Shown here: positions 1 to 14,048 of the stretch, piece after piece | Layout of the letters: each line of letters begins with the position of its first letter | Position numbering within the stretch: the stretch's first letter is position 1 | Assembly: GCF_036246005.1 (NCBI RefSeq) | Contig: NZ_CP109171.1 | Span: forward strand, 2,220,001-2,284,000 | Length of the DNA stretch: 64,000 nucleotides | DNA from: Streptomyces sp. NBC_01723 | GTDB lineage: Bacteria; Actinomycetota; Actinomycetes; Streptomycetales; Streptomycetaceae | Direction: 5' to 3' | Program-made: the position numbers and the translations under genes | Notes under the pieces: generated by a model | Seen by the model: only the letters and a program-made list of their open reading frames with translations | Databases searched by the model: none | Told to the model about the DNA's origin: nothing

Positions 1-362
1 TAGACGTCGCCGTTGCAGTTCATCCAGGCCTGGTTGTGGTCGCCGCCGACCGGGGGGTTCACGGGGTAGCTGACCTTCTTGGTGACGTGGTTGCGGGCCA
101 GGTCCCCGTCCCAGGTCTTCACCCCGTCCTTGCCGGTGACGAACTTGCCGGAGTTCTTGCCGTCGGACGCGGTGTCGTCGGAGGAGTCGTCGGACTGTCC
201 CCGGACCAGGAAGACGCCGCCGACGACGAGACCGGCGACCACCACGGTGCTGACCGCGATCGTGAGGATCCGGTTCCGGCGCTCACGCGCCTCCTCGGCA
301 CGCCGCATCTCGGCTATGCGGGCCTGTCGCGCCGTGTTGCTGTTCTTCTTCGCGGAACCCAT
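1..362 (-). CDS. DUF3105-type membrane-anchored protein (3' end cut by window)
   Basis: The gene reads leftward off the window, so only the first 120 residues are seen. They hold a lysine/arginine-rich cytoplasmic stretch (residues 1-31), one hydrophobic segment (about 32-53, VVVAGLVVGGVFLV) and then a polar Ser/Asp linker. The last visible residues, PPVGGDHNQAWMNC, match the conserved opening of the DUF3105 domain (PPxGGxHxxxWxxC). The protein is therefore expected to be anchored in the membrane with the domain outside. Function of the family is unknown. Start chosen at the ATG after GAAGGG (reverse strand). It is divergent from glnA2, with about 290 bases between them. Confidence 0.8.
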   Translation of the reverse strand, partial: MGSAKKNSNTARQARIAEMRRAEEARERRNRILTIAVSTVVVAGLVVGGVFLVRGQSDDSSDDTASDGKNSGKFVTGKDGVKTWDGDLARNHVTKKVSYPVNPPVGGDHNQAWMNCNGDV

Positions 363-460
363 GGGGTGCAGCCCTTCTGGGAAGTCTTCTGCCATCGAGC
401 GGGGTGGCCGGGTCCGCTGATCGTAAGCGTGGAAGGCCGCTCCTTCGTAGCTAGATCACA

Positions 461-481
461 GGATCCGTCCCGGGCGGATCC
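461..481. promoter_or_regulatory. Inverted repeat between the DUF3105 gene and glnA2
   Basis: GGATCCG and CGGATCC face each other across a 7-base centre. The repeat lies in the divergent intergenic region (363-654), which holds no gene. It is a candidate operator for one or both genes; the protein that would bind is unknown. Confidence 0.3.
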
Positions 482-654
482 CCGGAATGGCCCGATCGAA
501 CAGGTGGCCTCTACGCTGCGGTCATGGGGTGGGCCGGCCAAGCGGGGCCCGCAACGCATTCGAAACGGCGCTGTGGTGTGATGCACAGGTGCCCGACCGC
601 CTCCCGCCGTACGCGAGACAGGCGGCCTGACCAGCGAGGATGGGGAAGCGGAAG

Positions 655-2016
655 ATGGACAAGCAGCAGGAGTTCGTGATCCGGACGCTGGAGGAGCGCG
701 ACATCCGGTTCGTACGCCTTTGGTTCACGGACGTGCTGGGCTTCCTCAAGTCCGTCGCCGTGGCCCCCGCGGAGCTGGAGCAGGCCTTCGACGAGGGCAT
801 CGGCTTCGACGGCTCGGCCATCGAGGGCTTCGCCCGCGTGTACGAGTCCGACATGATCGCCAAGCCCGACCCGTCGACCTTCCAGGTCCTGCCCTGGCGC
901 GCGGAGGCCCCCGGCACGGCCCGCATGTTCTGCGACATCCTCATGCCGGACGGCTCCCCGTCCTTCGCGGACCCGCGCTACGTCCTCAAGCGCGCCCTGG
1001 CCCGCACCTCCGATCTGGGCTTCACCTTCTACACCCACCCGGAGATCGAGTTCTTCCTGCTGAAGGACAAGCCGGTCGACGGCTCGATCCCCACCCCCGC
1101 CGACAACTCCGGCTACTTCGACCACACCCCGCAGAACATCGGCATGGACTTCCGGCGCCAGGCGATCACGATGCTGGAGTCGATGGGCATCTCGGTGGAG
1201 TTCTCGCACCACGAGGGCGCGCCGGGCCAGCAGGAGATCGACCTGCGCTACGCGGACGCGCTCTCGACGGCGGACAACATCATGACGTTCCGCCTGGTCA
1301 TGAAGCAGGTCGCGCTGGAGCAGGGCCTCCAGGCCACCTTCATGCCGAAGCCGTTCTCGGAGTACCCGGGCTCGGGCATGCACTCGCACCTTTCGTTGTT
1401 CGAAGGCGACCGCAACGCGTTCTACGAGTCCGGCGCGGAGTACCAGCTCTCCAAGGTCGGCCGCTCGTTCATCGCGGGCCTGCTGCGGCACGCGGCCGAG
1501 ATCTCGGCGGTCACCAACCAGTGGGTGAACTCGTACAAGCGCATCTGGGGCGGCTCCGAGCGCACGGCCGGCGCGGGCGGCGAGGCCCCGTCCTACATCT
1601 GCTGGGGCCACAACAACCGCTCCGCGCTGGTCCGCGTCCCCATGTACAAGCCCGGCAAGACCGGCTCGGCCCGCGTCGAGGTCCGCTCCATCGACTCCGG
1701 CGCCAACCCGTACCTCACCTACGCCGTCCTGCTGGCCGCCGGCCTCAAGGGCATCGAGGAGGGCTACGAACTCCCGCCGGGCGCGGAGGACGACGTCTGG
1801 GCCCTCTCCGACTCGGAACGCCGGGCCCTGGGCATCGAGCCCCTCCCCCAGAACCTCGGCGAGGCCCTCGCCCTGATGGAACGCAGCGACCTGGTCGCCG
1901 AGACGCTCGGCGAACACGTCTTCGACTTCTTCCTGCGCAACAAGCGGCAGGAGTGGGAGGAGTACCGGTCGCAGGTGACGGCGTTCGAGCTGCGGAAGTC
2001 TTTGCCGGTGCTGTAG
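655..2016 (+). CDS. glnA2: Glutamine synthetase family protein GlnA2 (gamma-glutamylpolyamine synthetase type)
   Basis: A 453-residue glutamine synthetase type I fold protein. Near the N terminus is the beta-grasp segment (FTDVLGFLKS, FDGSAIEGF). The catalytic domain shows the ATP/metal motifs EIEFFL, HHEGAPGQQEID, PGSGMHSHLS and the NRSALVRVP/EVRSIDSGANPYL region. The adenylylation-loop tyrosine motif of true GlnA is not obvious. Sequence and neighbours match what I recall of S. coelicolor SCO2241, reported as a gamma-glutamylpolyamine synthetase that lets the cell use and tolerate polyamines; substrate here is therefore inference. I prefer the ATG at 655 (MDKQQEF), which gives the family length; an ATG at 640 is in frame but has its AGG too close. 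The C-terminal end is duplicated in part at 10831-10887. Confidence 0.9.
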   Translation: MDKQQEFVIRTLEERDIRFVRLWFTDVLGFLKSVAVAPAELEQAFDEGIGFDGSAIEGFARVYESDMIAKPDPSTFQVLPWRAEAPGTARMFCDILMPDGSPSFADPRYVLKRALARTSDLGFTFYTHPEIEFFLLKDKPVDGSIPTPADNSGYFDHTPQNIGMDFRRQAITMLESMGISVEFSHHEGAPGQQEIDLRYADALSTADNIMTFRLVMKQVALEQGLQATFMPKPFSEYPGSGMHSHLSLFEGDRNAFYESGAEYQLSKVGRSFIAGLLRHAAEISAVTNQWVNSYKRIWGGSERTAGAGGEAPSYICWGHNNRSALVRVPMYKPGKTGSARVEVRSIDSGANPYLTYAVLLAAGLKGIEEGYELPPGAEDDVWALSDSERRALGIEPLPQNLGEALALMERSDLVAETLGEHVFDFFLRNKRQEWEEYRSQVTAFELRKSLPVL

Positions 2017-2019
2017 GGG

Positions 2020-2042
2020 CCGGGGGCCGGACGGCCCCCCGG
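2020..2042. terminator. GC hairpin between convergent glnA2 and the DUF3592-like gene
   Basis: CCGGGGGCC and GGCCCCCCGG flank a 4-base loop directly after the glnA2 stop and before the stop of the leftward gene. It is placed to stop transcription from both sides. There is no T-tract, as is common in Streptomyces. Confidence 0.45.
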
Positions 2043-2043
2043 T

Positions 2044-2952
2044 TCAGTCGTGGGGGACTTCCTCGATCACCGTCTCTGCGAACCGCCACGAGCCCCGATT
2101 TCCCAGCGCCTCTGCGCGCAGCCCCATCTCCCAGGCGATCCGGGCCGCCCGCTGCTGCGGGACATCGGGGTACTCCTCGGGCTGGACCTTGATGTAGCCG
2201 CGCCGGTCGACGGGTTGGGTGCGCAGCACTTCGCGCAGTTTCTGCTCCTGCTCGTCCGGCGTGGTGGAGTCGCCGGTGACGCGCTTGTACGCCTTGCCCG
2301 TGCCGACCGGGCGCTTCCGCTCCTCCCTCCGGCTCGCGGCGTCCGATCCGCGCCATGTCATCCACCCGACTGCGCCGAGCGCAGCCAGGCCGGCCGCCCC
2401 CGCGCCGAGCAGCTCACCGGTGGCGTCCGCCTGCCCTGGCGTCCGGGGGCGGAGTGCTCCTTCCGGATCCGCGAGCACGGTCAGTTCCTGGCCGACGTCG
2501 TAGAGGTCGGTCGTCGTCTCCAGCTCCGGCCCGGGCACGCGGGAGCCGTCCTCGCGCCGCAGCTCATAGTGGGAGTGGCGGGCCTTGCGACCCTGAGCCG
2601 GGTCGAGCCGCTCCTTCACCACCGTGGCCGTGACCTCCTCGCCACGTTGTTGCAGCGTGAGGTCGTCGCGCCCCAGGTCGAAGACGTACACCGACACCAC
2701 GGAGGTGAGCACGACGAACAGCGCCGCGTATGTGCCCGACTCCCGAGCACCGAGTCTCCGGATCAGTGCGACGAGCAGCAGCCCGTGCACGACCCACAGA
2801 GCGATCTCAACGAAGGGCCCGGTTCCGTCGACGAGGAGGAACATCGCCGCGATCACGGCGATCGTGTAACAACCGATACCGATCGCGAGCAGGACGGGAT
2901 ACTTCATGCGCCTCCCGCGGGCCTCGTCCCTTGCCTGCCCGACGCTGATCAT
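2044..2952 (-). CDS. Four-TM membrane protein of unknown function, last gene of the WXG/T7SS-like operon
   Basis: 302 residues. Three hydrophobic helices lie near the N terminus (about 18-41, 46-64, 74-91). A soluble beta-rich stretch follows (about 95-175, with TATVVKERLDP and YDVGQELTVL, reminiscent of DUF3592-like proteins), then a fourth helix at about 181-200 and a charged C-terminal tail of about 100 residues. The start ATG overlaps the stop of the gene before it (ATGA), so translation is probably coupled; an internal Met at residue 16 is the alternative start. It could be an accessory or immunity protein for the upstream WXG-type product, but nothing in the sequence proves this. It lies inside the island bounded by the duplicated glnA2 tail. 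Confidence 0.75.
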   Translation of the reverse strand: MISVGQARDEARGRRMKYPVLLAIGIGCYTIAVIAAMFLLVDGTGPFVEIALWVVHGLLLVALIRRLGARESGTYAALFVVLTSVVSVYVFDLGRDDLTLQQRGEEVTATVVKERLDPAQGRKARHSHYELRREDGSRVPGPELETTTDLYDVGQELTVLADPEGALRPRTPGQADATGELLGAGAAGLAALGAVGWMTWRGSDAASRREERKRPVGTGKAYKRVTGDSTTPDEQEQKLREVLRTQPVDRRGYIKVQPEEYPDVPQQRAARIAWEMGLRAEALGNRGSWRFAETVIEEVPHD

Positions 2953-3692
2953 GCTCGTTGCTCCGTTCCTCCGGCGTCCTGGACTTCGGCCTTCACGGCA
3001 TTCTCCACACCCGGTTCCTCGTCCGAGATCGACTTCATGATGCCGCCGAGCACTTCGAGGTATTCGGTCCAGTGCTCACGGTCCTCGGTCATGAAGACGA
3101 ACAGGACCGACCCGGGCCCGGCCTTCAGCGGAACGCTGAGCTGCACCTGCCGCATTGTGGCGGGTACGGAATCCTCCTGCCCGAAAAGTGCACCGGGGAT
3201 TTCCAGGTCCAGGTCCCGGATGCACAGGGCGGCCATGCCGTACGGGAGCATCACCATTCCCACCTCGGCGTCCGGATGCAGCTCACGCCATTGAACAGCC
3301 GTGCGCTTCGCCGAGCCGCGTCGGTCCTGGAAGTCGGGGCCCGTCTCCGGCCGCTCGACCATCACGCAGAGGGTGCCCTGCGAAAGCTGGTCGTCAGACA
3401 TGCGCAACAGACAACTGGATACGTGAGCGGCGCCCGCCTCGATCATCATCTGGAAGATGTACTCGCTCGAGACGACGAGGCTGAATTTCTGCTCCGGCGG
3501 CACCGAGGGGAACAGTACGTCGGCCGCCTCCGCCATGCGCACGACGCGCGCCTCCGGATCCTCCTGGAGGTCGAACTCCACGAAGCCCGGTGGCCGCACG
3601 AACCAGAAGTCGGGAGTCTCGTCGAGGGATGCAAAGGGCGTCGCGGCCGCCTCCGGTGCCGAGGCGGGTATGGGGTCGGGAGAGGAAGCCAT
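2949..3692 (-). CDS. Hypothetical 247-residue cytoplasmic protein, operon partner of a T7SS-type protein
   Basis: No signal peptide or membrane helix is seen. The N terminus is Pro/Ala/Ser rich (residues 1-25). The rest is a mixed alpha/beta protein with FWFVRPPGFVEFDL near the start and MVMLPYGMAALCIRDLDL in the middle. Its start overlaps the stop of the preceding gene by one base (TGATG) and its stop overlaps the next start (ATGA), so it belongs to one tightly coupled operon. The composition recalls the small partner proteins encoded after WXG-type secreted proteins in actinobacteria (chaperone or immunity role), but I do not recognise a named family. Confidence 0.7.
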   Translation of the reverse strand: MASSPDPIPASAPEAAATPFASLDETPDFWFVRPPGFVEFDLQEDPEARVVRMAEAADVLFPSVPPEQKFSLVVSSEYIFQMMIEAGAAHVSSCLLRMSDDQLSQGTLCVMVERPETGPDFQDRRGSAKRTAVQWRELHPDAEVGMVMLPYGMAALCIRDLDLEIPGALFGQEDSVPATMRQVQLSVPLKAGPGSVLFVFMTEDREHWTEYLEVLGGIMKSISDEEPGVENAVKAEVQDAGGTEQRA

Positions 3693-5008
3693 CAGTCCGT
3701 CAGCTCCCAAGCGCCCAGCCCTACGGCGCTGCCGACGGCGACGAGGCCGCCGAACTTGCCGCCGCCGGCACCCGTGGCGATGTTGGCAACTCCGGTGCCC
3801 CAAGTGGCGGCGTCGTAACGGCCAGTGCTCGTCTGGTAGGCATTGATCGCGGTAGGTGCCGTCCACGCGAGCTGTGCGGCTGCCTGAATGCCCTCCGTCG
3901 CGGTGAGAGCGGTGCCACGCGACACACCCAGCTTGGCAGCCGCCGCCATCACGGGCTTGTCGATCACGGCGGCAACCGGATCGGCCGCCTTCATGGCGTT
4001 CTTCGCCACGGAGCTTCCTGTCTTGATGCCGACCTTGGCCCCGTTGACGAGGCCACCTGCTCCGCGCCCCGCCTTCAATCCGGCCATGACACCCGCCTTG
4101 GCCGCGCCAACACCGGGAATCATGCCGAGCGCGTCGCCGCCCAGGGTGAGCCAGTTCCCGATGTTCGGGCCGGTGGGCGGGAAAAGTCCGTCCGCGCCGT
4201 AGGACGCCGCGTGCGCGAACAACGCCACGGCGCTGAGCCCGATCGCCAGCGGCGCGAGGACGGGGCAGAAGATGGCCACCACGCCAATGACCGAGGCGGC
4301 GACCGTGATCCAGTCGGCGTGGCTTTTCACCCACTCGCCGATGTCGGTCAGTAGTTCGCCCACTTGACCGGGCAGGTCGGCGATGGCTCTGCCAAGATCC
4401 GCGATGGCGTCCCCGAGCTTGTCCCACATGCCGGGCTCGTCGGGGGCGATGTCCATGGCGTTCTTGAGCCGGTCAGCTATGTCCTTGCCGTATTCACGGT
4501 AGTTTGCGGCCATCCGGCGGCCTTTGCGGCGGAGTTCCTCCAGCTCGAGCTTCTTGGCGTTCACTGCGCGGTCGGCGTCCTGGACCTTGTCCTCGTGGTC
4601 CTGGGTGTCCTTCTTCTCGTCGTCGGCGTTCTTGAGCTTATCGGCCTTCGTGTGCGCCTTGCCGAGCTGCTCGTCTACCTCGGCCGCCTGCGCCTCCAGC
4701 CCTACCGCGTCCCCCTGCTTGTCTTCCATGTACGCCGCCCAGTCCTCCAAGGCGGTCGCGGCGGCGCTGAACGAGTCACGGGCGTCGTCCATGCGGGGAC
4801 GGAATTCGTCGTCGAACTTCTCCCGGAACGTTTCCGCCGCCTTCCCCTTCCAGTCGCCCACGCCGGTTCCGTGCAGCACATCGGATATCTCTACGAGTGC
4901 CTTCGCCGTCCTGCGCACTGTCTTGGCCACGTCATCGGCGACCGTGTGGTCGCCGGGGCAGGGCACGAATCCGAGTGCCGGAAAGTCCTCTGGTGTCGCC
5001 GCGGCCAC
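3692..5008 (-). CDS. Putative T7SS-secreted WXG-domain protein with hydrophobic C-terminal half
   Basis: 438 residues from the GTG at 5008, which lies 2 bases after the stop of the upstream gene. Residues about 20-110 are helical and carry the WXG turn (W53-K-G55 in GDWKGKAAETF), the signature of ESX/type VII substrates. Residues about 112-200 are charged coiled coil rich in Lys, Glu and Asp. Residues about 245-285 are strongly hydrophobic (WITVAASVIGVVAIFCPVL) and the remaining C terminus is Gly/Ala rich with further hydrophobic stretches. This layout is that of putative T7SS-secreted proteins of Streptomyces. A defined toxin domain is not visible; a membrane-acting effector is one possibility. 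No ESX secretion genes are in the window. Confidence 0.75.
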   Translation of the reverse strand: MAAATPEDFPALGFVPCPGDHTVADDVAKTVRRTAKALVEISDVLHGTGVGDWKGKAAETFREKFDDEFRPRMDDARDSFSAAATALEDWAAYMEDKQGDAVGLEAQAAEVDEQLGKAHTKADKLKNADDEKKDTQDHEDKVQDADRAVNAKKLELEELRRKGRRMAANYREYGKDIADRLKNAMDIAPDEPGMWDKLGDAIADLGRAIADLPGQVGELLTDIGEWVKSHADWITVAASVIGVVAIFCPVLAPLAIGLSAVALFAHAASYGADGLFPPTGPNIGNWLTLGGDALGMIPGVGAAKAGVMAGLKAGRGAGGLVNGAKVGIKTGSSVAKNAMKAADPVAAVIDKPVMAAAAKLGVSRGTALTATEGIQAAAQLAWTAPTAINAYQTSTGRYDAATWGTGVANIATGAGGGKFGGLVAVGSAVGLGAWELTD

Positions 5009-5010
5009 GA

Positions 5011-5316
5011 TTACTTGCCGCCCTTCTTGCCCTGGCTCTTGTGCGCCTCGGCGAGCTCGTGGTCCAACGCCTCGAAGGATTCCTTCACCGTGAGCAGCGC
5101 CTTGGACGCCTTTTCGGAGAACTTGGTCAGTTGCTTGATCCCGTACGACCACTCATCACCGAAGTCGTCCATGCGCCTTGCGAGTTCCGGCACCCCCATG
5201 GCATCACCGGTAACCTGCTCCATCTCACGGCCCGGCTTCTTCATCAGGAGCGCTATGTGGTCCATATTGTGTCGCACCCGCATCAGCACTTCGTAGTCCG
5301 CCGACAGATCGCTCAC
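5011..5316 (-). CDS. Small WXG100-like helical protein, first gene of the operon
   Basis: About 101 residues, starting at GTG 5316 behind a G-rich ribosome site. It is entirely helical by composition (YEVLMRVRHNMDHIALLMKK, then ARRMDDFGDEWSYGIKQLTK), with a Trp-containing turn in the middle (DEWSYG) where WXG100 proteins carry W-x-G. The C terminus is basic (KSQGKKGGK). Small WXG100-like proteins usually pair with a larger partner for type VII export, and the next gene, two bases away, encodes such a protein. The exact W-x-G is not perfect, so membership in the family is likely but not certain. Confidence 0.7.
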   Translation of the reverse strand: MSDLSADYEVLMRVRHNMDHIALLMKKPGREMEQVTGDAMGVPELARRMDDFGDEWSYGIKQLTKFSEKASKALLTVKESFEALDHELAEAHKSQGKKGGK

Positions 5317-5900
5317 CGTGCCCCCGTTCCCGTTCGGTTGGTGTCCCCCCAGCCCCGACCTCCTCGCGGGGACGGATGGATCAAGCCCTTCGACGGTATC
5401 CAAGGGGTTCACGTGACACCATGCCGGGGCCAGTCGGGACAGCGGCCCGGCTTCCCGTCGGAGTGGGAACGCTCAGCGAGCGGGGCGGGAGTCGCCGGCG
5501 TCCAGGAGGACCGAGGCGTAGAAATGCCTGAGCGTTCCGAGCGGTCTTCGCGCCACGCGGTCAGAAGGCCGCTTTCAGCTCCGACGAGGGCGCCACGGTG
5601 GCCGACCGCGCGATCCCGATAGAGCGGGATGCCCTGGTGCGTCTCCGGTCAATGAGGACGCCCCGTCGGTTGAAGGCGCTCCGGGCGGCCTGAGAGCACC
5701 CTGCCGGTGGTAGGCCACCCTTGGGGTCGGCGAACCAGGCCAGGACAGCCTTGCTGGGTCATGGGCATGGGTAACGGGACACCAACACACCACGCCGGTC
5801 GCCCCTGTGACTCCCGATGCAGAGCCCGATAGTCTCTGCCTCACCTCACGAGCCACCCAACTCAGTTATTCGGAGGCTCAGTTCCCGATCGAGGAGCGTC
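5317..5900. other. 584-base divergent intergenic region
   Basis: It lies between the leftward WXG operon and the rightward Trypco1 gene and must contain both promoters. No open frame in it shows convincing composition or motif content. I could not fix a -35/-10 pair or an operator with confidence. Confidence 0.5.
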
Positions 5901-6329
5901 ATGCCGCTGTCTGAAGGCCAGGCCCTGTACGCAGTCGAAGTGCCGCTGGGGAGCGACGGCGAGGTCGTACGAGTGCAGGTGAACGACCGCGGAGAGGACG
6001 TCGTGCGCGTCGGACGTGGCAGCCGTGCCATCACCCGGGCCGAGCAGTCCCTGGAACAGATGCTGGATGTCGTACGGCCGGTCGCGGACGCATTCGTCGG
6101 CCGCTGCCGTGGCATGCTCCGGTCGCCTGACGAGGCGACCCTGGAATTCGGCATGTCGCTCTCGGCCGACGCGAAGGTCCTCATCGCGGGCTCCTCTGCG
6201 GAGGCCAACTTCTCCGTCAGCCTCACCTGGCACAGCAGCCCCGCCGGTCCGGACGCCGTGCCGGAAACCGAGCCCGGCCCGGATGCCGCGAGCCGAGTCC
6301 CGGAGGGCCACCCCGCCTCCAGCGGCTGA
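5901..6329 (+). CDS. Trypco1 (trypsin-co-occurring) domain protein, CU044_2847 type
   Basis: 142 residues from the ATG at 5901. The first 110 residues form one beta-rich domain (YAVEVPLG, VVRVQVND, then a helix EQSLEQMLDVVRPVADAFV, and a closing strand set LEFGMSLSADAKVLIAGSS). This matches the small Trypco1 domain, named because it is encoded beside trypsin-like protease fusions. The C-terminal 30 residues are a Pro/Glu-rich tail. The neighbour 77 bases downstream, transcribed the same way, is exactly such a protease-NTPase fusion. Trypco domains are thought to be the target or adaptor component in NTP-dependent conflict systems; that role is inference from published gene-neighbourhood work, not shown here. 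Confidence 0.8.
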   Translation: MPLSEGQALYAVEVPLGSDGEVVRVQVNDRGEDVVRVGRGSRAITRAEQSLEQMLDVVRPVADAFVGRCRGMLRSPDEATLEFGMSLSADAKVLIAGSSAEANFSVSLTWHSSPAGPDAVPETEPGPDAASRVPEGHPASSG

Positions 6330-6406
6330 GTCGCGCGGGTCAGGCCGGGATCGGCCTGCGCACTGCCAGCACCCTCCTGCTCTCTCTACCGCTCCGAGGA
6401 GGCCCG

Positions 6407-9400
6407 GTGTACGACCAGGACGAATCCGGCCGAACCGCGTTTGGGGCCGGGCACGGTGAACACGAGGACGCCGACACCATCCTCGCCGCCGGGACGGTCC
6501 GCCTCCGTGACCTGCACGGCGACTCTGCCGGGACCGGATTCCTTGTCGGCGACGGGCTGGTCCTCACCTGCGCCCATGTGGTGTGCGACGCGCTCGGGAA
6601 GCCCCGCGACACCGAGGTGCTTGCGGGCGCCCGTGTCACGTTTGATCTGCCGCTCCTCGCAGGGGCGGGAGTCCCGGGGCAGGGCATCGAAGCGGAGGTG
6701 GCGCACTGGATACCGATCCGGGAGGACCGGGGCGGTGATGTGGCCGTGCTTCGAGTACTCTCACCGGCACCGGAGGCGAGGCCGCTGCCCACCAGCCCGT
6801 CCCGGCGCCTGTGGGAACACGGGTCCCGCATCGTCGGCTTCACCGGGGCCTCCGACCGGCCCGTGTGGCAGCGGGGCAGTCTCCTCGGCCCTGCTGGGAA
6901 GGGCTGGGTACAGCTGTCCCGGGCCGACGGTCAGACGGTCCGTGTCACCGGCGGTTTCAGCGGCAGCCCGGTCTGGGACAACGCTCTCGGCGCCGTCGTC
7001 GGCATGATCGTGGCCGCGGAGCCGGCACGCGACGACCAGCAGGCGTACATGTTGCATCTCGGGGCGCTCGCCGACGAGATCCCCGCTCTCGCCGACGCGC
7101 TCTTGGCCCCGACGCCCTTCCGTGGCCTGGAGCCCTTCCGCGAGGAGGACGCCGACGTCTTCTTCGGCCGCGAGGAGGACACGGAGACCGTGGTCACCGC
7201 CCTGCGCGGTGACCGTGCAGCGGTGACGTTGTGCGGCCCCTCGGGGTGCGGCAAGTCCTCCCTCGCCCTCGCGGGGGTGGCGCCCGTGATGCGCCGCGCC
7301 GGCCACGAGGTGGTGATCATCCACTGCGGCCGCACCTCCCGTCCGATGGATGCCCTGGCGGTCGAACTCCTCGAACTGGGACGCCAGAAACGGTTCGGGC
7401 CGCCGCGCGCCACCGGCCTCGAGCGGGTCGTCACCTGGCTGACCGGGGCAGGCCTCGCGGACACCGTCCACCGGCTCACCGGCACTGCCACCACAGACCT
7501 CCTCGTCGTACTGGACCAGGCCGAAGCTCTGCTCGACCTGCCCGAGGAGGCCCTCACGGCCCTCTTGTCGGTGCTGTTCCCCGCCCGGCGCACCGCCGGA
7601 ATGCGGGTGCTGCTCACCTTGCGCGCCGACTTCATTGACGCCGCCCTCAGCCACGAGCACCTCGGACCGGTGCTGAAACGGGGAGCCGTCCTGCCGCTGA
7701 CCCCGATGACCCGGGAGCAGCTCCAGGCAGTCATCACCCGCCCCGTGGACCGCGTCCCCGGTGTCTCCTACGAACCGGGGCTGGCCCGCCGCATCCTCGA
7801 GGACGCCGGCAGTGAGCCCGGCGCCCTCCCCCTGCTCTCCTTCGTCCTGCGGCACCTGTGGGAGGAACAGTCGGGCGGCCGACTGAGGGTCGAGGCGTAC
7901 GAGAGGGCCGGCGGCGTATCCGGCGCACTGCGCAGGCACGCGGAGGAGGCTTGGCGGAAATACGTACCGTCCGTGTCCGGGACCGGCTCCCCAGACGCCG
8001 CAGACTCCCCGGAGGCCCCTGACCCCACGGAAACCACCAGGCACGCGCGACGGCTCCTCGCCGGACTGGTGCGAGTGGTGCCGGGAAGCGGCGCACCCGC
8101 ACTGCGGCGGGTGCTGACCCGTGCGGAGGCCGGCGAGCAGCGCTGGCACCTGGCCGTGTTGTTCGCCGGGAAGGACGAACGTCTGCTGGTGCTCCACGGC
8201 GGGGCCGGAGTGCCGGAGAGTGTGGAACTCGCCCATGAGGCCCTCATCACGGCCTGGCCGACTCTGTCCGAAGTGGTGCGCGAGGACCGTGACTTTCTTG
8301 CCGCGCGGACGGAGTTGCAGCACGACCGGGAACGCTGGGAGAGAGAAGGCTGTACCGACGAGCTCCTGCCACGAGGTGCCCATCTCGCCTCTCTCGAGAG
8401 CCGTCTTGCGGGACGCACCGACGAACTGACGGCGGCTGAGACCGACTTTCTCGGCGTCGCGGACCGGCAACGCCGCGTGTTGGAACAACTGCACCGTGCC
8501 CGGCAGAGGCGCCTCCGATGGGCATGGGTGGCCGGCAGCCTCGCTATGGTGCTCATCGCCGCCTTGAGCGTGTTCTTCGTCCAGGCGTCCCGGGTGAGCA
8601 AGGAGCGGGCGGCGGAAGGCCGGTCCAGGACGCTGGCCGTCCAGGCGGACGAGCTGGCCAAGACGAATCCTGCCCAGGCCGCTCTGACCGCGATAGCGGG
8701 ATATGACACCTCCCCGACGCAGGAGGCCCGCAACGCGTTGATGCGACGGTACTCGGAGATGATGAAGGCAAGTTGGGTCCTGTCCGGACTGGATTCCGAC
8801 ATCGAACAGGCGAGTATGAGCGCGGACGGCAAGGTGACCCTGGTGACCACCGTGGGCGGTCGCGCGACCTTGTTCCTCCGCTCCGACGACGGACGGGTGC
8901 GACAGGAGAACCTGCGGCTGGGCCAAAAGGTCCGCAACCCTCAGGTGAGCGGCGACGGCCGGAGAATCGCCTACTTGCGCGAAGCCGACGTGCTCCTCGC
9001 CTGGCACGAGGTGACCACCTCCGGGAAGCGCCTGGTAGGCACGGCTCACCTGCTCCGGCACGCACAGGCACGGGACAAGGACGGCTCCATCCTCGCGGTC
9101 AAAAGTTCCCGGTTCTCTCCCGACTCGCGGTTCCTGGTGGAAGCCTCCCAGGTGACCGAAGGACTGCCCCTCCTGGTCTGGGATCTCTCCAGCGGTCGTC
9201 CTCACGAAGTGCCGGGGGGCATCACCGACGTGCGCTGGATCTGGTTCGGTGCGGACAGCGGAACCCTGGTCGCGTGGAAGGGTCTCAAATTCGAATTGGG
9301 AGGGGGAGAGCGCTCCTCTCTGCTGGCTATTGATGTCGCCACCGGGTCCGTCCGTGAATTGGCCCATGATTTCTACTCCATTCCCGAGGTGTCCTGGGAC

Positions 9401-10822
9401 GGGAAAACGGCTGTTGTCTGCCACAAGCAGGGGGAGGACGTCCGCCGTTACCAGGCCATCCGGGTGTCGGACGGCAGAATCCTCCGCAGCCAAGGGCTCA
9501 AACTGTCGTCCTGCCGGAAACCGGAGTTCGACACGGCAGGCCGCAATTTCGTCGTCGAAGGGCCCGGCTCGGGTGAATGGTCCCGTATGGCGATCCACGG
9601 TGACGCGGCGCCCGAACGGCTGGCGCCCCGTCAGCGACTCTCCACTTCGATCGGCGTCGAACGCCTGCCCCTCCTGACGTCCGGGTCGGAAAGCGTGATG
9701 CCGTTCGCCGAGGGCCGCACGGTCACGGGCGTCAGCATGTCCGGCGGCCCCTCCAATCCGGCACACGGTTATCCGGTGCTGCTCGGTGACGGTGACCGGA
9801 TGCTGGTCCGCAGCGACGGCGGCAAGGCGCTCCGCATTATGGAGACGAGGCCCGGGGCACGCACCCTCGCCCGGGCCGAGACTCCCGGAACACCGCCCAC
9901 CGAGGAACAGCCTCTTGTCACCGACAAGGAGGAAACCCTGGTGGCGGACGTCTCGGACCACAAAAGGGTCACGGTCCGCACCCTGCCCTCCCTGCGCCGG
10001 CTCAGCCAATTCACCGTGTCCGCGCCGCCCCTCGACGATGCGACCGGAGAACCGGGCACGATCGACATCATGTTCCAGAGCGACGACAGGGTGGTCACCT
10101 TGTCAGGTTCGGTTCTCGAGTACTGGGACGCACGGCGAGGGCGCCGGCTCTCGTCCGCCGTCAAACTTCCGAGCCTAGGGCTCAGTAGTGCCGAAGCCCC
10201 GTCCTTCTTCATGGGGGCCCATCCGGACCCGGCGTATGTAACGGTGACTGTGCAGGGAGAGCCCGATGTGCACACGATCGACCTGCGGACGGGAAGAGAG
10301 GACAGGAAGCAGCGCATTGACCTCGCCGAGGACCTGCTCACCGCGGAGTATCTGCCGGACACGCGCTACATGGCAGTGCTCACCACCGGCAGGATCGTCG
10401 AGATCTGGTCCGTGGAGAAGGGGGCGCCGCCGGAAAAGGTGCTGGGGCCGTTCGGACCGCTCGAACCGCATCGCTGGACGATGGGGTCCTCCGGCGGATC
10501 CGGATTCTTCCTCGCCTACGAGAGCACCATGGTCCGTCTCCGGGCCGACGATCCGGAACACCGGGACACCTTCGTGTTCTCGAAGATCCAGCGATTTCTG
10601 GACGCCACCAAGGACGGCAGGACCCTGCTGAGCATGCCGGTGCGGGGTGATCTGGACGACCCGTCCAGCACGGGAGGCCTGTTGACACTCTTCCACCTCG
10701 ACCCCGCGCTCTGGAAGGAACACCTCTGCGGTGTCGTCGGCCGGGAGCTCACGGCAGACGAACGCACGGCCCTTTCCGGTGAGCTGCCGGAGAGATCGTG
10801 CCCCGATCCCGAGCAGGACTGA
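6407..10822 (+). CDS. Trypsin-like protease - nSTAND1 NTPase - TM - beta-propeller fusion protein
   Basis: 1471 residues from a GTG with a perfect AGGAGG 8 bases upstream. Residues 25-230 are a trypsin-like protease with the complete triad: H57 (TCAHVV), D111 (GGDVAVL) and S185 (GGFSGSPVW). An nSTAND1 P-loop NTPase follows, opened by the diagnostic FRGLEPFREEDADVFFGRE, with Walker A at 277-284 (GPSGCGKS) and a Walker B-like LLVVLDQAEAL (D370), then a helical region. A membrane-spanning helix at about 705-727 is followed by a conserved post-TM segment (DELAKTNPAQAALTAIAGY). Residues about 775-1471 are repetitive beta-propeller sequence of WD40 type. Protease and NTPase lie on the same side of the membrane, the propeller on the other. 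Proteins of this design are viewed as sensor-NTPase-effector units of conflict or programmed-death systems; here an active protease is the likely effector. All key residues are present, so it should be functional. Confidence 0.85.
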   Translation: MYDQDESGRTAFGAGHGEHEDADTILAAGTVRLRDLHGDSAGTGFLVGDGLVLTCAHVVCDALGKPRDTEVLAGARVTFDLPLLAGAGVPGQGIEAEVAHWIPIREDRGGDVAVLRVLSPAPEARPLPTSPSRRLWEHGSRIVGFTGASDRPVWQRGSLLGPAGKGWVQLSRADGQTVRVTGGFSGSPVWDNALGAVVGMIVAAEPARDDQQAYMLHLGALADEIPALADALLAPTPFRGLEPFREEDADVFFGREEDTETVVTALRGDRAAVTLCGPSGCGKSSLALAGVAPVMRRAGHEVVIIHCGRTSRPMDALAVELLELGRQKRFGPPRATGLERVVTWLTGAGLADTVHRLTGTATTDLLVVLDQAEALLDLPEEALTALLSVLFPARRTAGMRVLLTLRADFIDAALSHEHLGPVLKRGAVLPLTPMTREQLQAVITRPVDRVPGVSYEPGLARRILEDAGSEPGALPLLSFVLRHLWEEQSGGRLRVEAYERAGGVSGALRRHAEEAWRKYVPSVSGTGSPDAADSPEAPDPTETTRHARRLLAGLVRVVPGSGAPALRRVLTRAEAGEQRWHLAVLFAGKDERLLVLHGGAGVPESVELAHEALITAWPTLSEVVREDRDFLAARTELQHDRERWEREGCTDELLPRGAHLASLESRLAGRTDELTAAETDFLGVADRQRRVLEQLHRARQRRLRWAWVAGSLAMVLIAALSVFFVQASRVSKERAAEGRSRTLAVQADELAKTNPAQAALTAIAGYDTSPTQEARNALMRRYSEMMKASWVLSGLDSDIEQASMSADGKVTLVTTVGGRATLFLRSDDGRVRQENLRLGQKVRNPQVSGDGRRIAYLREADVLLAWHEVTTSGKRLVGTAHLLRHAQARDKDGSILAVKSSRFSPDSRFLVEASQVTEGLPLLVWDLSSGRPHEVPGGITDVRWIWFGADSGTLVAWKGLKFELGGGERSSLLAIDVATGSVRELAHDFYSIPEVSWDGKTAVVCHKQGEDVRRYQAIRVSDGRILRSQGLKLSSCRKPEFDTAGRNFVVEGPGSGEWSRMAIHGDAAPERLAPRQRLSTSIGVERLPLLTSGSESVMPFAEGRTVTGVSMSGGPSNPAHGYPVLLGDGDRMLVRSDGGKALRIMETRPGARTLARAETPGTPPTEEQPLVTDKEETLVADVSDHKRVTVRTLPSLRRLSQFTVSAPPLDDATGEPGTIDIMFQSDDRVVTLSGSVLEYWDARRGRRLSSAVKLPSLGLSSAEAPSFFMGAHPDPAYVTVTVQGEPDVHTIDLRTGREDRKQRIDLAEDLLTAEYLPDTRYMAVLTTGRIVEIWSVEKGAPPEKVLGPFGPLEPHRWTMGSSGGSGFFLAYESTMVRLRADDPEHRDTFVFSKIQRFLDATKDGRTLLSMPVRGDLDDPSSTGGLLTLFHLDPALWKEHLCGVVGRELTADERTALSGELPERSCPDPEQD

Positions 10823-10830
10823 GGCCGGAG

Positions 10831-10887
10831 CCGTACCGGTCGCAGGTGACCGCCTTCGAGTTGAGAAAGTCACTGCCGGTGCTGGGA
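10831..10887 (+). pseudogene. Remnant of the glnA2 3' end (right border of island)
   Basis: Reading from 10834, the frame encodes YRSQVTAFELRKSLPVL, identical in protein to the end of GlnA2. The first 18 bases (10833-10850) are identical to 1962-1979; after that the codons differ mostly at silent positions, and the stop codon is lost. It has no start or upstream coding sequence. This is what remains when an element inserts into the 3' end of a gene and brings a replacement end with it, or when a divergent allele has been exchanged. Confidence 0.8.
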
Positions 10888-10953
10888 GGGCCTGAGTGCG
10901 GGTCGGAGAGAAGGAAGGCGTGGTTCCTCTCCCCCACGGGGTAGCCGGTCGCC

Positions 10954-11202
10954 ATGACGGAGCGCCGGCGGTCAGGAGATGCGGCCACGCCTTCATGGCA
11001 CCGACGCCGGCGGGTGTACTGGCCGGCAGTGTTGGCCTACGTGCTTGCCGTGGCGGGTCTCGCAGCCGCGTTCTGGCACTGGGTGAGGGGCAAGTCCTGG
11101 GACGACTCGCTGTCCTTCGCGCTGACGGTGACGATGTCCGCGATCGGCAGCCAGTGGGCAGCCGCAATCATCCGGCGGAAGGCCGGTCGCGGTGACGGCT
11201 GA
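10954..11202 (+). CDS. Small two-TM membrane protein, hypothetical
   Basis: 82 residues with a basic N terminus, a hydrophobic helix at about 21-44 (VYWPAVLAYVLAVAGLAAAF), a short charged loop (RGKSWDD) and a second helix at about 52-72, then a basic tail. No family was recognised. It lies just outside the right border of the glnA2-tail island. The start ATG has only a weak ribosome site (GGGGTAG), so the gene is likely but not secure. Confidence 0.5.
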   Translation: MTERRRSGDAATPSWHRRRRVYWPAVLAYVLAVAGLAAAFWHWVRGKSWDDSLSFALTVTMSAIGSQWAAAIIRRKAGRGDG

Positions 11203-11595
11203 CCGTCGGGAGTGGCACGGGTTGCGCCCGCCCCTTCGGGATGACGCCGACCTGCGCCAAACCTCCCTCGGACCTGCACACCGTTCATCGCACGGTCGCA
11301 GGGGACGCTGTGGCGGACGCTCACCGCGCCCCCTGTGGCCGTCCCGGCTCCTGGGAGCGCTGTCACCGGCTGAGAAGCGTGAAGACGCGGGTTTTTTCAG
11401 CGACCGTGTGCGCACACTCATGAATGCGGAGCGCCCATCGTCTCGCTGTCAACAACACGCGGATGGTGGGCCGTTCCCCACCGTGCTTTGATCGGTGCAC
11501 GGCACGCTGGTGGCCGGTTCCGGCCCCCCTCGGAATACGGGCGGGCGTGCCTCACCGCTCCCCCATTTTCGTCGGCACGAAAGGTAAGACCTGCC
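11203..11595. other. 393-base intergenic region before the RiPP-like precursor
   Basis: No coding sequence with credible composition was seen on either strand. It should hold the promoter of the precursor gene at 11596, but no convincing -10/-35 pair could be assigned. The ribosome site AAAGG sits 10 bases before the precursor ATG. Confidence 0.4.
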
Positions 11596-11805
11596 ATGAA
11601 CCTCGTCCCCCAAGTCGAAACGGCTGAGATCTCCGACGCGAGCCTGGACCAGGTGTCCGGCGGCAACATCGCCATCGGCGCGGCCCTGATAGCGGCCGAC
11701 GGCCAGTTCGGCGCCGGCCTCCACGCGGAGTCCGGCTGCATCGGCCTCACCACCGGCGTCGGCGCCTCCGCCATCCACGGCGACGCGCACACGACGGTGG
11801 CCTGA
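11596..11805 (+). CDS. Orphan RiPP-like precursor peptide with double-glycine leader
   Basis: 69 residues. The leader (residues 1-23) is acidic and ends in SLDQVSGG, the GG-type cleavage signal of class II lanthipeptide, nif11-like and bacteriocin leaders; Streptomyces annotations of similar peptides use the name type A2 lantipeptide. The 46-residue core is Gly/Ala rich, holds a single Cys (SGCIG) and several Ser/Thr, and ends in HTTVA. One Cys allows at most one thioether ring, so a classical multi-ring lanthipeptide is unlikely; an unmodified bacteriocin-like or another peptide class is possible. No LanM, radical SAM, C39 peptidase or dedicated transporter is nearby, so maturation enzymes would have to act in trans. 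Confidence 0.7.
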   Translation: MNLVPQVETAEISDASLDQVSGGNIAIGAALIAADGQFGAGLHAESGCIGLTTGVGASAIHGDAHTTVA

Positions 11806-11836
11806 GTCACCCCGATTTACGCGCGCGGGCCCCGGA

Positions 11837-12034
11837 TCATCGTGTCCGGGGCCGCCTCACGAACGCGGTCCAGACCTCCCGGGCGACGGCGAGGCGGGGG
11901 CCGTCGGGGCGCTTGGAGTCACGGATGTGGATGGCGACGGGGGTTATCGCGACCTCGACGCAGTCGCTGGGGTTGCTGCTGTCGCTGTAGCTGCTGGTGA
12001 ACCAGGTCAGGTCGGACGCGTTTTCGCGGCTCAT
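11837..12034 (-). CDS. DUF397 domain protein
   Basis: 65 residues with the full DUF397 pattern: WFTSSYSDSSNPSDCVEVA, the strand AIHIRDSKRPDGPRL and the closing VWTAFV. Such proteins are encoded after XRE-DUF5753 regulators in streptomycetes and are thought to act with them as regulator partners, similar in logic to toxin-antitoxin or anti-regulator pairs. Its ATG overlaps the stop of the upstream regulator by 4 bases (ATGA), so the two are coupled. Confidence 0.9.
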   Translation of the reverse strand: MSRENASDLTWFTSSYSDSSNPSDCVEVAITPVAIHIRDSKRPDGPRLAVAREVWTAFVRRPRTR

Positions 12035-12885
12035 GTCTCCCCAAGCAGTTTTTCGATGAAAGCCGTTGATTCCCGGGCGGTCAGCGCCTCGGACCGGATG
12101 ATGCCGTAACGCAGTTCGAGGATGCGGATGTGCCGGGGATCTGTGACGGGACGGTTGCCGAACTCGTCGTCAGCCCGGCCTACTGCCGTGCCGTCGCCGA
12201 ACTTGAGCACGTGGATCCGTCCTCCCGTTCCCGGATGATCACCTCGAGATGTCGGCATCACCTGGATCTCGACGTACGGCAACCGCGCCATCTCAAGCAG
12301 GTGTTCGAGCTGACGACACAGCACCATCTTGCCCCCTACCGGGCGCCTCAGCGTCACCTCTTCCACGACAAAGCTGAGTTCGGGAGCGGGCTCCCGATCG
12401 AAGATCGTCCTGCGAGCCATCCGTGCGGCGAGCGCCCTCCCCAGTTCTTCCTCCGACAGCACCGGCCGCCGCGTACCGAGCAGGGCACGGGCGTACTCCT
12501 CGGTTTGCAGGAGGCCGTGAACGTTGTGGATGCCGTACGAAAGCGACTCGACCGCGCAGGACTCCAACTTCGCCAAATCCCGCACCTGCTTGGGATACCG
12601 GACCCTCTTCACGTCCTCCCACGTCGCCGCGAGAAGCCCACCCGCCTCCAGCACCTGGTCCGCCTTCTCCAGGTACTCCCGGCGAGGAATCCGCTTCCCG
12701 CCCTCGACCTTGTAGACGAGGTCCTCCCCGTAGCCGACGGCGATGCCGAAGTCACCGGCCCGCATCCCCGCCGCCTCGCGTCGCAGTTTCAGCTGCCGCC
12801 CGACCGTGGCCAGGACCGCCACACCCCACTCGTCGTCCGGGTCGACCTCCCAACCCGGCTCGTCCGCCTCGCCGTTCACCGACAT
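12031..12885 (-). CDS. XRE-family regulator with DUF5753 domain
   Basis: 284 residues. The helix-turn-helix lies at about 25-80 (LKLRREAAGMRAGDFGIAVG, then VYKVEGGKRIPRREYL) and the DUF5753 domain at about 100-280 (ESLSYGIHNVHGLLQTEEYA, YVEIQVMP, and a closing ESTAFIEKL). I start at the ATG 12885 because GGAGGG lies 6 bases before it; the ATG at 12891 has no spacing to that site. A TACAAC hexamer upstream on the same strand may be the -10. Members such as these control antibiotic and development genes in Streptomyces; the target here is unknown. Confidence 0.9.
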   Translation of the reverse strand: MSVNGEADEPGWEVDPDDEWGVAVLATVGRQLKLRREAAGMRAGDFGIAVGYGEDLVYKVEGGKRIPRREYLEKADQVLEAGGLLAATWEDVKRVRYPKQVRDLAKLESCAVESLSYGIHNVHGLLQTEEYARALLGTRRPVLSEEELGRALAARMARRTIFDREPAPELSFVVEEVTLRRPVGGKMVLCRQLEHLLEMARLPYVEIQVMPTSRGDHPGTGGRIHVLKFGDGTAVGRADDEFGNRPVTDPRHIRILELRYGIIRSEALTARESTAFIEKLLGET

Positions 12886-13116
12886 CCGCATCCCTCCGCC
12901 GTACGCGTTGTATCGCGACGGGCGACACGGTAGGGAAGGCAGCCAGGCCCTGGTGCCGGAACGGGACTCCATCCACGCCAACGGGTGATCCGAGATGTGA
13001 GGGCTTCGGCGTCGAGCGCCTGGCGCACCGATGAGTTTTGTGCGCTGCAGGGGTCTCCTGTTGGCAGTAACGCACACCACAGCAGTACGGCCCCTACATG
13101 AACCGGAGAGACAAAC

Positions 13117-13953
13117 ATGGCAACAGCGCGAGAGCAGTCGGCCGGAGCCGAGGCCCGTGTCGTCTCCGCAGACGGCACCGAGATCGCATTCGAGCAGTCG
13201 GGCCGCGGCCCGGCCGTCGTCCTGGTTGCCTCGGCGCTGGCAGACCGCTCGGACACGACCAAGCTCGCGGCTCTCCTGGCCCAGCACTTCACTGTGGTCA
13301 ACTACGACCGGCGCGGACGGGGTGCCAGCGGTGACGCCCATGCTTACGCCCCCGACCGCGAGATCGAGGACATCGCCGCGTTGGTCGAACACGTCGGCGG
13401 TTCGGCGTCGCTGTTCGGCTCGTCCTCCGGAGCGGTCCTCGCCCTGCGCGCGGCCGCTGCCGGAGTGAACGTCGACCGTCTGGCTCTGTATGAGCCGCCG
13501 TTCGTGGTCGCCGAAGGCGACGACGGGCCGCCCAAGGATCTCGCACAGCAGATCACCGTGATGCTTGCGGAAGGTCGGCACAGTGACGCGGTCAAGTACT
13601 TCATGACGAGAGTGCAGGGCATGCCCGGCATCGCCGTGTTCTTCATGAAGCTCATGCCGAAGATGTGGGCAAACCTCACCAAGCTGGCCGGCACTCTGCC
13701 CTATGACATCGCGGTCATGGGCGATACCCAGCAGGGCAAGCCGCTCGATGCCGAGGAGTGGAAAGGGGTGGCCGTACGCACCCGGGTGTTGACCGGTGGC
13801 AAGAGTTCGGCCGCGTTCCAGCGCGCAGCCCTCGCCCTCACCGAGATCCTGCCGCAGGCCGACCACCGCACCCTGCCCGGACTCAACCATGGCGCCGTCG
13901 TCATGGCCCCGAAGAAAATCGCCCCGGAGATCATCGAGTTCATCAAGGGATGA
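13117..13953 (+). CDS. Alpha/beta hydrolase
   Basis: 278 residues of the alpha/beta hydrolase fold. The nucleophile elbow is G101-S-S103-S-G105 and the catalytic His is H258 (PGLNHGAVV). The oxyanion strand is VVLVASALADRSD, and the VVNYDRRGRGAS strand is typical of small esterase or haloperoxidase-like members. There is no signal peptide, so it is cytoplasmic. Substrate cannot be told from sequence. It is divergent from the XRE regulator across 231 bases and has a CCGGAGAG ribosome site. Confidence 0.85.
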   Translation: MATAREQSAGAEARVVSADGTEIAFEQSGRGPAVVLVASALADRSDTTKLAALLAQHFTVVNYDRRGRGASGDAHAYAPDREIEDIAALVEHVGGSASLFGSSSGAVLALRAAAAGVNVDRLALYEPPFVVAEGDDGPPKDLAQQITVMLAEGRHSDAVKYFMTRVQGMPGIAVFFMKLMPKMWANLTKLAGTLPYDIAVMGDTQQGKPLDAEEWKGVAVRTRVLTGGKSSAAFQRAALALTEILPQADHRTLPGLNHGAVVMAPKKIAPEIIEFIKG

Positions 13954-13957
13954 GCTT

Positions 13958-14048
13958 GTCGTTCGAGCGGTTCGGCGGCGCTTGGTACCGCTCCTTGCAC
14001 TCGGGGCGGAGCGACCCAAGTCCGACTGACCGCCGAACCCCGAACGAC
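13958..14048. terminator. Long imperfect hairpin between convergent genes
   Basis: A nested inverted repeat: GTCGTTCG with CGAACGAC, GGTTCGGCGG with CCGCCGAACC, CTTGG with CCAAG, and CGCTCC with GGAGCG around a 13-base loop. About 29 base pairs in 91 bases. Its place after the hydrolase stop and before the MFS stop suggests a bidirectional terminator; a small inverted-repeat element is the alternative. Confidence 0.55.

Follow-up and report, generated by a model that had tools for sequence, protein, structure and literature searches.

Actinomycete integrative and conjugative elements (AICEs) insert mostly into tRNA genes; one survey counts 36 insertion sites in tRNA genes, 14 in protein-coding genes, of which rlmN is named, and one intergenic site, and states that a defective AICE retains traB (PMC9513070). 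The words "glutamine" and "glnA" are absent from the main texts of two AICE surveys (PMC3218068, PMC9513070). A search of titles and abstract openings found no publication in which glnA2 serves as an integration site for AICEs; the supplementary site table of PMC9513070 was unreadable and may already list it. Another mobile island, PAISt of Streptomyces turgidiscabies, is described as large and as located at the 3' end of bacA, at the 8-bp palindrome TTCATGAA (PMC4057263). Here we describe a 9-kb island at the 3' end of the glutamine synthetase family gene glnA2 in Streptomyces sp. NBC_01723. The analyzed stretch of 64,000 nucleotides, referred to as the window, covers positions 2220001-2284000 of contig 1 of this 8.85-Mb genome (G000). 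The island resembles PAISt in targeting the 3' end of a protein-coding gene, and differs from it in that PAISt is large and targets bacA with its palindrome. We read the island as a decayed AICE and the 3' end of glnA2 as a docking site recurrently used by AICEs in Streptomyces, with a probability of about 0.87.

The glnA2 gene (640-2016, plus strand) encodes a protein of 458 aa with the Pfam domains Gln-synt_C and Gln-synt_N, and its last 28 codons are the segment replaced by the elements of relatives. The attL-like tail comprises codons 431-458 and the stop codon (1929-2016, plus strand); in relatives, the repeat begins at the core TTCCTGCGCAACAAG. The first-pass annotation of this DNA had reported that the glnA2 end recurs downstream, with an identical run of 18 bases and with differences mainly at silent positions, and all three observations were borne out. 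The final 17 codons (1963-2013) are repeated at 10834-10884, 8.87 kb downstream, without a third match in the genome, and the identical run (1962-1979 and 10833-10850) is found both in the sequence and in the alignments. The two copies differ at seven of 51 sense bases and all seven differences are silent, which has a probability of about 1-3e-4 under simulated free drift. The direct-repeat pair at 1956-2030 and 10827-10901, with 75 nt and 79% identity, is the longest among the repeats listed for window positions 1-14000. A degenerate tail pattern, searched with at most two mismatches, has two matches across the whole genome and its reversed control has none, which rules out a chance repeat. 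A tRNA gene as the integration target was also ruled out, since the window contains no tRNA. The second, attR-like tail (10827-10884, plus strand) was delimited by repeat alignment and is colinear with the complete second tail of Streptomyces sp. CB02414. It is decayed, having lost the core and the stop codon, and uses AGA and TCA codons, which are unused in the present glnA2 end.

The same pattern search was performed on 295 Streptomyces genomes, the window included. The tail pattern is present in 275 of them and has two matches in 31, and a true second glnA2 tail was found in 30 after leaving out G133, whose second match is unrelated sequence on a different contig. In 26 of the 30 two-tail genomes, the tails share contig and strand and are separated by 1.5-26 kb; in one (G014) they are inverted relative to each other, and in three (G188, G202, and G211) they are located on separate contigs. 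The direct repeats have a fixed boundary: in 25 of the 29 two-tail genomes compared without gaps, with the inverted case left out, the distance from the repeat start to the stop codon is 82-86 bases, which places the start at TTCCTGCGCAACAAG, close to codon 431. G000, G144, G141, and G051 deviate from this. The duplications in G051 (L048) and G141 (L059) reach 198 and 119 bases before the stop codon, beyond the common boundary, and are possibly longer gene copies. The inverted second tail of G014 (L043) is 5.8 kb distant from glnA2 and has altered codons. In L106, from Streptomyces violaceus NRRL B-2867, about 210 bp interrupt the glnA2 match within the last codons, and an integrase is found 1.2 kb away. 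Beyond the genus, a family-wide sample of 121 genomes contains seven whose two tails share a contig and are no more than 25 kb apart, and two other genera are represented (G361 and G367; G327, G334, G343, G364, and G383). By the same sign of second tails, the 3' end of glnA2 would be an AICE docking site in other Streptomycetaceae too.

Many of the two-tail intervals in relatives possess a tyrosine integrase of about 420 aa when whole, located just inside the glnA2 end and directed toward glnA2. Of the matches listed from an integrase search of the 295 genomes, 17 reach 71% identity or more, and every one of these adjoins a glnA2 tail or sits in a two-tail interval; in G069 and G249, an integrase of this kind is near one detected tail only. 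From the named collection, 80 of 222 integrase loci were retained for site analysis. A glnA2 tail is present on 35 of the 37 loci whose integrase is at least 71.7% identical to the query, and the distance from the integrase to the tail is 81-89 bp in 32 of these 35. Streptomyces virginiae NRRL ISP-5094 (L130) and S. radiopugnans CGMCC 4.3519 (L123) are examples of strains in which glnA2 adjoins an integrase of this clade. Of the two loci without a tail, L136 stops 88 bp past the integrase and L112 shows none in its remaining 1.9 kb. Less similar integrases (at most 68.5%) are accompanied by a glnA2 tail in none of 43 cases, within the DNA retrieved for each locus. A phylogenetic tree was constructed from 78 integrases, without L135 and L152 because their integrase matches are too short, and a branch supported at 100/94 separates the 43 less similar integrases from all others. 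The genome of the window also encodes an integrase of the wider family at 2765410-2766519 of contig 1 (L089; 67%, residues 1-372), and that 6.5-kb locus gave no significant match to a glnA2 tail.

The gene content of the relatives' elements matches that described in the AICE surveys (PMC3218068, PMC9513070): a tyrosine integrase at one end, a candidate excisionase gene, Prim-Pol/DUF3631, TraB, direct repeats, and accessory genes. The gene families were checked in a few single elements. The site-specific integrase lies beside one att site and carries the Phage_integrase domain in L057. At the excisionase position, a protein of L063 matches HTH_17 and scores below the cut-off of the excisionase model TIGR01764 (19.5 of 28.8 bits). 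The replication gene of L063 has Prim-Pol (E 7e-49) and DUF3631 (E 4e-64) domains; neither Pfam nor NCBIfam has a family that matches the primase-helicase-like protein encoded by L065 and L068. TraB was identified in L046 by NF041214 with 880.6 bits (cut-off 800), FtsK_SpoIIIE was found only at sub-threshold level in L045 and L063, and L063 also encodes a GntR regulator. In G075 (L053), two minus-strand genes between the tails, at 6185-6808 and 6801-7871, encode a VanX-type dipeptidase and a D-Ala-D-Lac ligase, so that the site is able to hold genes of the glycopeptide-resistance type. Other glnA2 elements contain a PLD/SNF2-helicase protein (L057, 14989-18399) and a GmrSD_N protein (L046, 3234-4736), which are perhaps defense genes.

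Within the window, relics of two such AICE genes were found on the minus strand, in the order of an intact element. The first-pass annotation had stated that no integrase is inside the island; a remnant of 45 bp at 5488-5532 contradicts this. It encodes the catalytic box LRHFYASVLLDAGDS of an AICE tyrosine integrase, corresponding to residues 353-367 of the 422-aa integrase of relatives. Of its 15 residues, 13 are identical to most element integrases tested (tblastn, E 8e-5 to 7e-4), and 41 bp match L057 with 97.6% identity (blastn, E 1e-13). The second relic (5564-5726) is the frameshifted C-terminus of an AICE primase-helicase-like ATPase gene, which is located upstream of the integrase gene, and has kept its natural stop codon. 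At the nucleotide level it matches L066 (77%, blastn E 1e-34) and Streptomyces sp. CCM_MD2014 (77.5% over 200 bp, E 3e-40); it is also supported at the protein level, with glnA2-site elements as the best matches. The equivalent stretches are about 1.8 kb apart in CCM_MD2014 and adjacent in the window, which indicates that most of the integrase gene and the intervening DNA were deleted. Fourteen 3-kb loci with a single tail, each spanning just 1.5 kb past it, served as a control, and none matches the relic stretch at E <0.01. When 172 open reading frames of at least 80 aa from the islands of relatives were compared with window positions 2017-12000 at E 1e-3, the scraps of the integrase and primase-helicase genes alone gave matches; these reading frames come from a simple codon-composition caller that may miss or misframe genes.

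We take Streptomyces sp. CB02414 (L135) to be the decisive relative for the right junction. Its glnA2 has a restored tail, its integrase match is 95% over residues 100-414, and its second tail is complete. Window positions 10827-11771 are colinear with 16278-17234 of L135 on the reversed strand (81% over 958 bp), including an 82-aa gene at 10954-11202, and 10885-11771 (plus strand) is the chromosomal flank to the right of the element. In CB02414, the downstream tail ends in KSLPVL and the working glnA2 in KNLPVL. KSLPVL is also the ending in eight of ten other close relatives inspected, with G215 and G092 as exceptions, and this is the pattern expected if the element supplies a new end. A strain in which glnA2 is directly followed by the gene at 10954 had been suggested as a check, but of 11 close relatives inspected, none has this order. 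When positions 10886-11480 were used as a nucleotide query, five of 294 other genomes gave partial matches. Only G195 among the five has a glnA2 tail on the 3-kb locus, where glnA2 and the match are separated by about 1.3 kb of other DNA. Left-arm similarity is found in G195 and G346, and the latter also has the right-junction core and a shortened tail. At 11596-11805, the window encodes a small peptide with the motif LDQVSGG, similar to peptides in CB02414, G277, G200, G346, and G215, which we assume to resemble the leader of a small secreted peptide.

Two gene sets flank the AICE relics. The first is a WXG module of the type VII secretion system (T7SS) type at about 2036-5336 (minus strand), consisting of four genes (2044-2952, 2949-3692, 3692-5011, and 5011 to about 5320) with a T7SS_signal Pfam domain in the gene at 3692-5011. 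The second comprises a Trypco1-domain protein gene (5901-6329, plus strand; Pfam E 5e-26) and the adjoining gene for a protein of 1471 aa with a trypsin-like protease and an nSTAND1 NTPase (6407-10822, plus strand; Trypsin_2 E 6e-15, nSTAND1 E 1e-84), which stops 10 bp short of the identical run of the second tail. The WXG block recurs elsewhere on the chromosomes of G159, G215, G275, and G023 with 71-80% nucleotide identity, and no integrase match, Trypco1 gene or nSTAND1 gene was found in these four 20-kb loci. Parts of the module are located directly 3' of glnA2 in G190 and G215, with no nSTAND1 match in the 20 kb examined, and the module thus entered before those lineages split or was transferred between them. 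An island made in one piece is ruled out by the independent WXG block and by the WXG parts at glnA2 without nSTAND1. Hence the proposal in the first-pass annotation that the intervening genes are accessory stands, and their forming a single unit does not. The WXG module appears to have been inserted independently, in the space that separates the glnA2 end from the integrase relic.

The nSTAND1 part has homologues with 43-62% identity in 11 of 120 other genomes, and the three placed relative to glnA2 (G051, G084, and G114) are not beside it. PADLOC gave only weak matches of the protease part to RT-Protease_XI (E about 1e-4). Trypco1-trypsin pairings and nSTAND1 NTPases occur in predicted counter-invader systems (PMC7159879, PMC8195603). 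The window is like the systems described there in the Trypco1 gene next to a trypsin-like peptidase and in the presence of an nSTAND1 NTPase. It is unlike them in the fusion of protease and nSTAND1 and in that no MoxR or vWA domain was found among six island proteins scanned. From its families, we predict that this gene pair functions as a conflict system; it may have belonged to the AICE cargo from the start or have been captured later.

A mechanism can be proposed for these arrangements. The element integrase would recombine a circular form with the chromosome at the core near codon 431 of glnA2. The element would bring a working copy of the last 28 codons and the stop codon, and the old end would be displaced to the far side as a loose repeat. 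Since the element carries this working copy, glnA2 would be cut and yet restored at once. That integration at this 3' end restores the gene, as first suggested from the window alone, agrees with the relatives by the 30 two-tail genomes, the common boundary, the constant integrase distance in 32 loci, and CB02414. The element in the window would have integrated in this way and then decayed, losing the excisionase, nearly all of the integrase gene, most replication genes, and the transfer genes. The leftovers would be the integrase box, the end of the primase-helicase-like gene, and the truncated right-hand tail, and with these scraps the island should be unable to excise itself. The WXG module would have been inserted between the glnA2 end and the integrase scrap; its presence at glnA2 in both G190 and G215 argues for an old event. 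The silent-only differences suggest that the second tail either still served as a functional gene end in relatively recent times or is derived from an element. These two signs would be compatible if several elements had used the site in succession.

Such succession is itself one of three other explanations. At least two AICEs may have used the site one after the other, the second tail then being element-borne from an earlier round and not the ancient host end; we regard this as possible, though doubtful. The codon usage of the downstream tail and its silent-only differences speak for it, as does its distance from relatives. Its nearest sequence among 91 distinct tails, at five differences, is the glnA2 end of L113 with a clade integrase beside it. 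Moreover, a post-stop motif of the GCAGGTCAG type also follows the second tails of G122 and G199 and, less well, of G250, and the integrase-adjacent tail of L105 lacks the glnA2 body in front of it, as would be the case in a tandem arrangement. Against succession, the window shows one set of relics only. It is much less probable that a single mobile element brought the whole 9 kb, mobilized in trans: both gene sets do lie between the tails, but the WXG block has its own ends and is found alone in the four genomes and at glnA2 in G190 and G215, and the AICE relics stand between the two sets. Least credible is a local duplication or gene-conversion scrap of glnA2 formed with no integration. The short window repeat without the usual core would suit it, as would the longer duplications with differing ends in G051 and G141, but it conflicts with the fixed boundary, the AICE genes in relatives, the relics, and the CB02414 junction, and drift following a simple duplication fits all-silent differences poorly.

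Several observations weigh against the decayed AICE that we favor. The island has neither the traB that a defective AICE retains nor any trace of TraB when compared with the relatives' reading frames, and its integrase gene is reduced to a 15-residue relic. Because traB is absent, we term it a remnant and not a member of the AICEs; compared with the AICEs of the surveys (PMC3218068, PMC9513070), the window copy is a wreck without TraB. The integrase box is conserved in other-site integrases too and is thus by itself no proof of a glnA2 element, and the primase-helicase relic also weakly matches the other-site elements L088 (E 1e-13) and L083 (E 4e-7). The second tail of the window begins at about codon 440, away from the core, and the GCAGGTCAG motif found 3' of many element-bearing tails is absent after the window's glnA2. 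Differences that are all silent are surprising in a copy that lost its coding role long ago. The downstream end had been expected to lie nearer to relatives than the present end; CB02414 shows this by its KSLPVL, but the window shows the opposite. Compared with the glnA2 ends of G136, G200, G346, and G277, its present tail differs at 1, 2, 2, and 4 bases and its downstream tail at 7, 6, 6, and 8. The CB02414 element is partly decayed as well, its integrase match lacking residues 1-99.

A recurrent docking site at the end of glnA2 would extend the map of mobile DNA in Streptomyces by a protein-coding gene that often serves as an integration site, and the second glnA2 tail would be a diagnostic for finding such elements in draft genomes. 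Provided that the reaction is demonstrable in a laboratory strain, the integrase and its attB may be a candidate pair for the construction of integration vectors. More tentatively, and with somewhat less than even confidence, we suggest that one integrase clade has kept the glnA2 end as a dedicated AICE site across Streptomycetaceae, and that decayed elements leave a pocket that collects secretion and protease-NTPase modules. Since every integration would swap the last 28 codons, the C-terminus of glnA2 may evolve as a shared, element-borne part exchanged between species. The site would then be a natural setting in which to test whether gene ends brought by elements reshape a metabolic enzyme.

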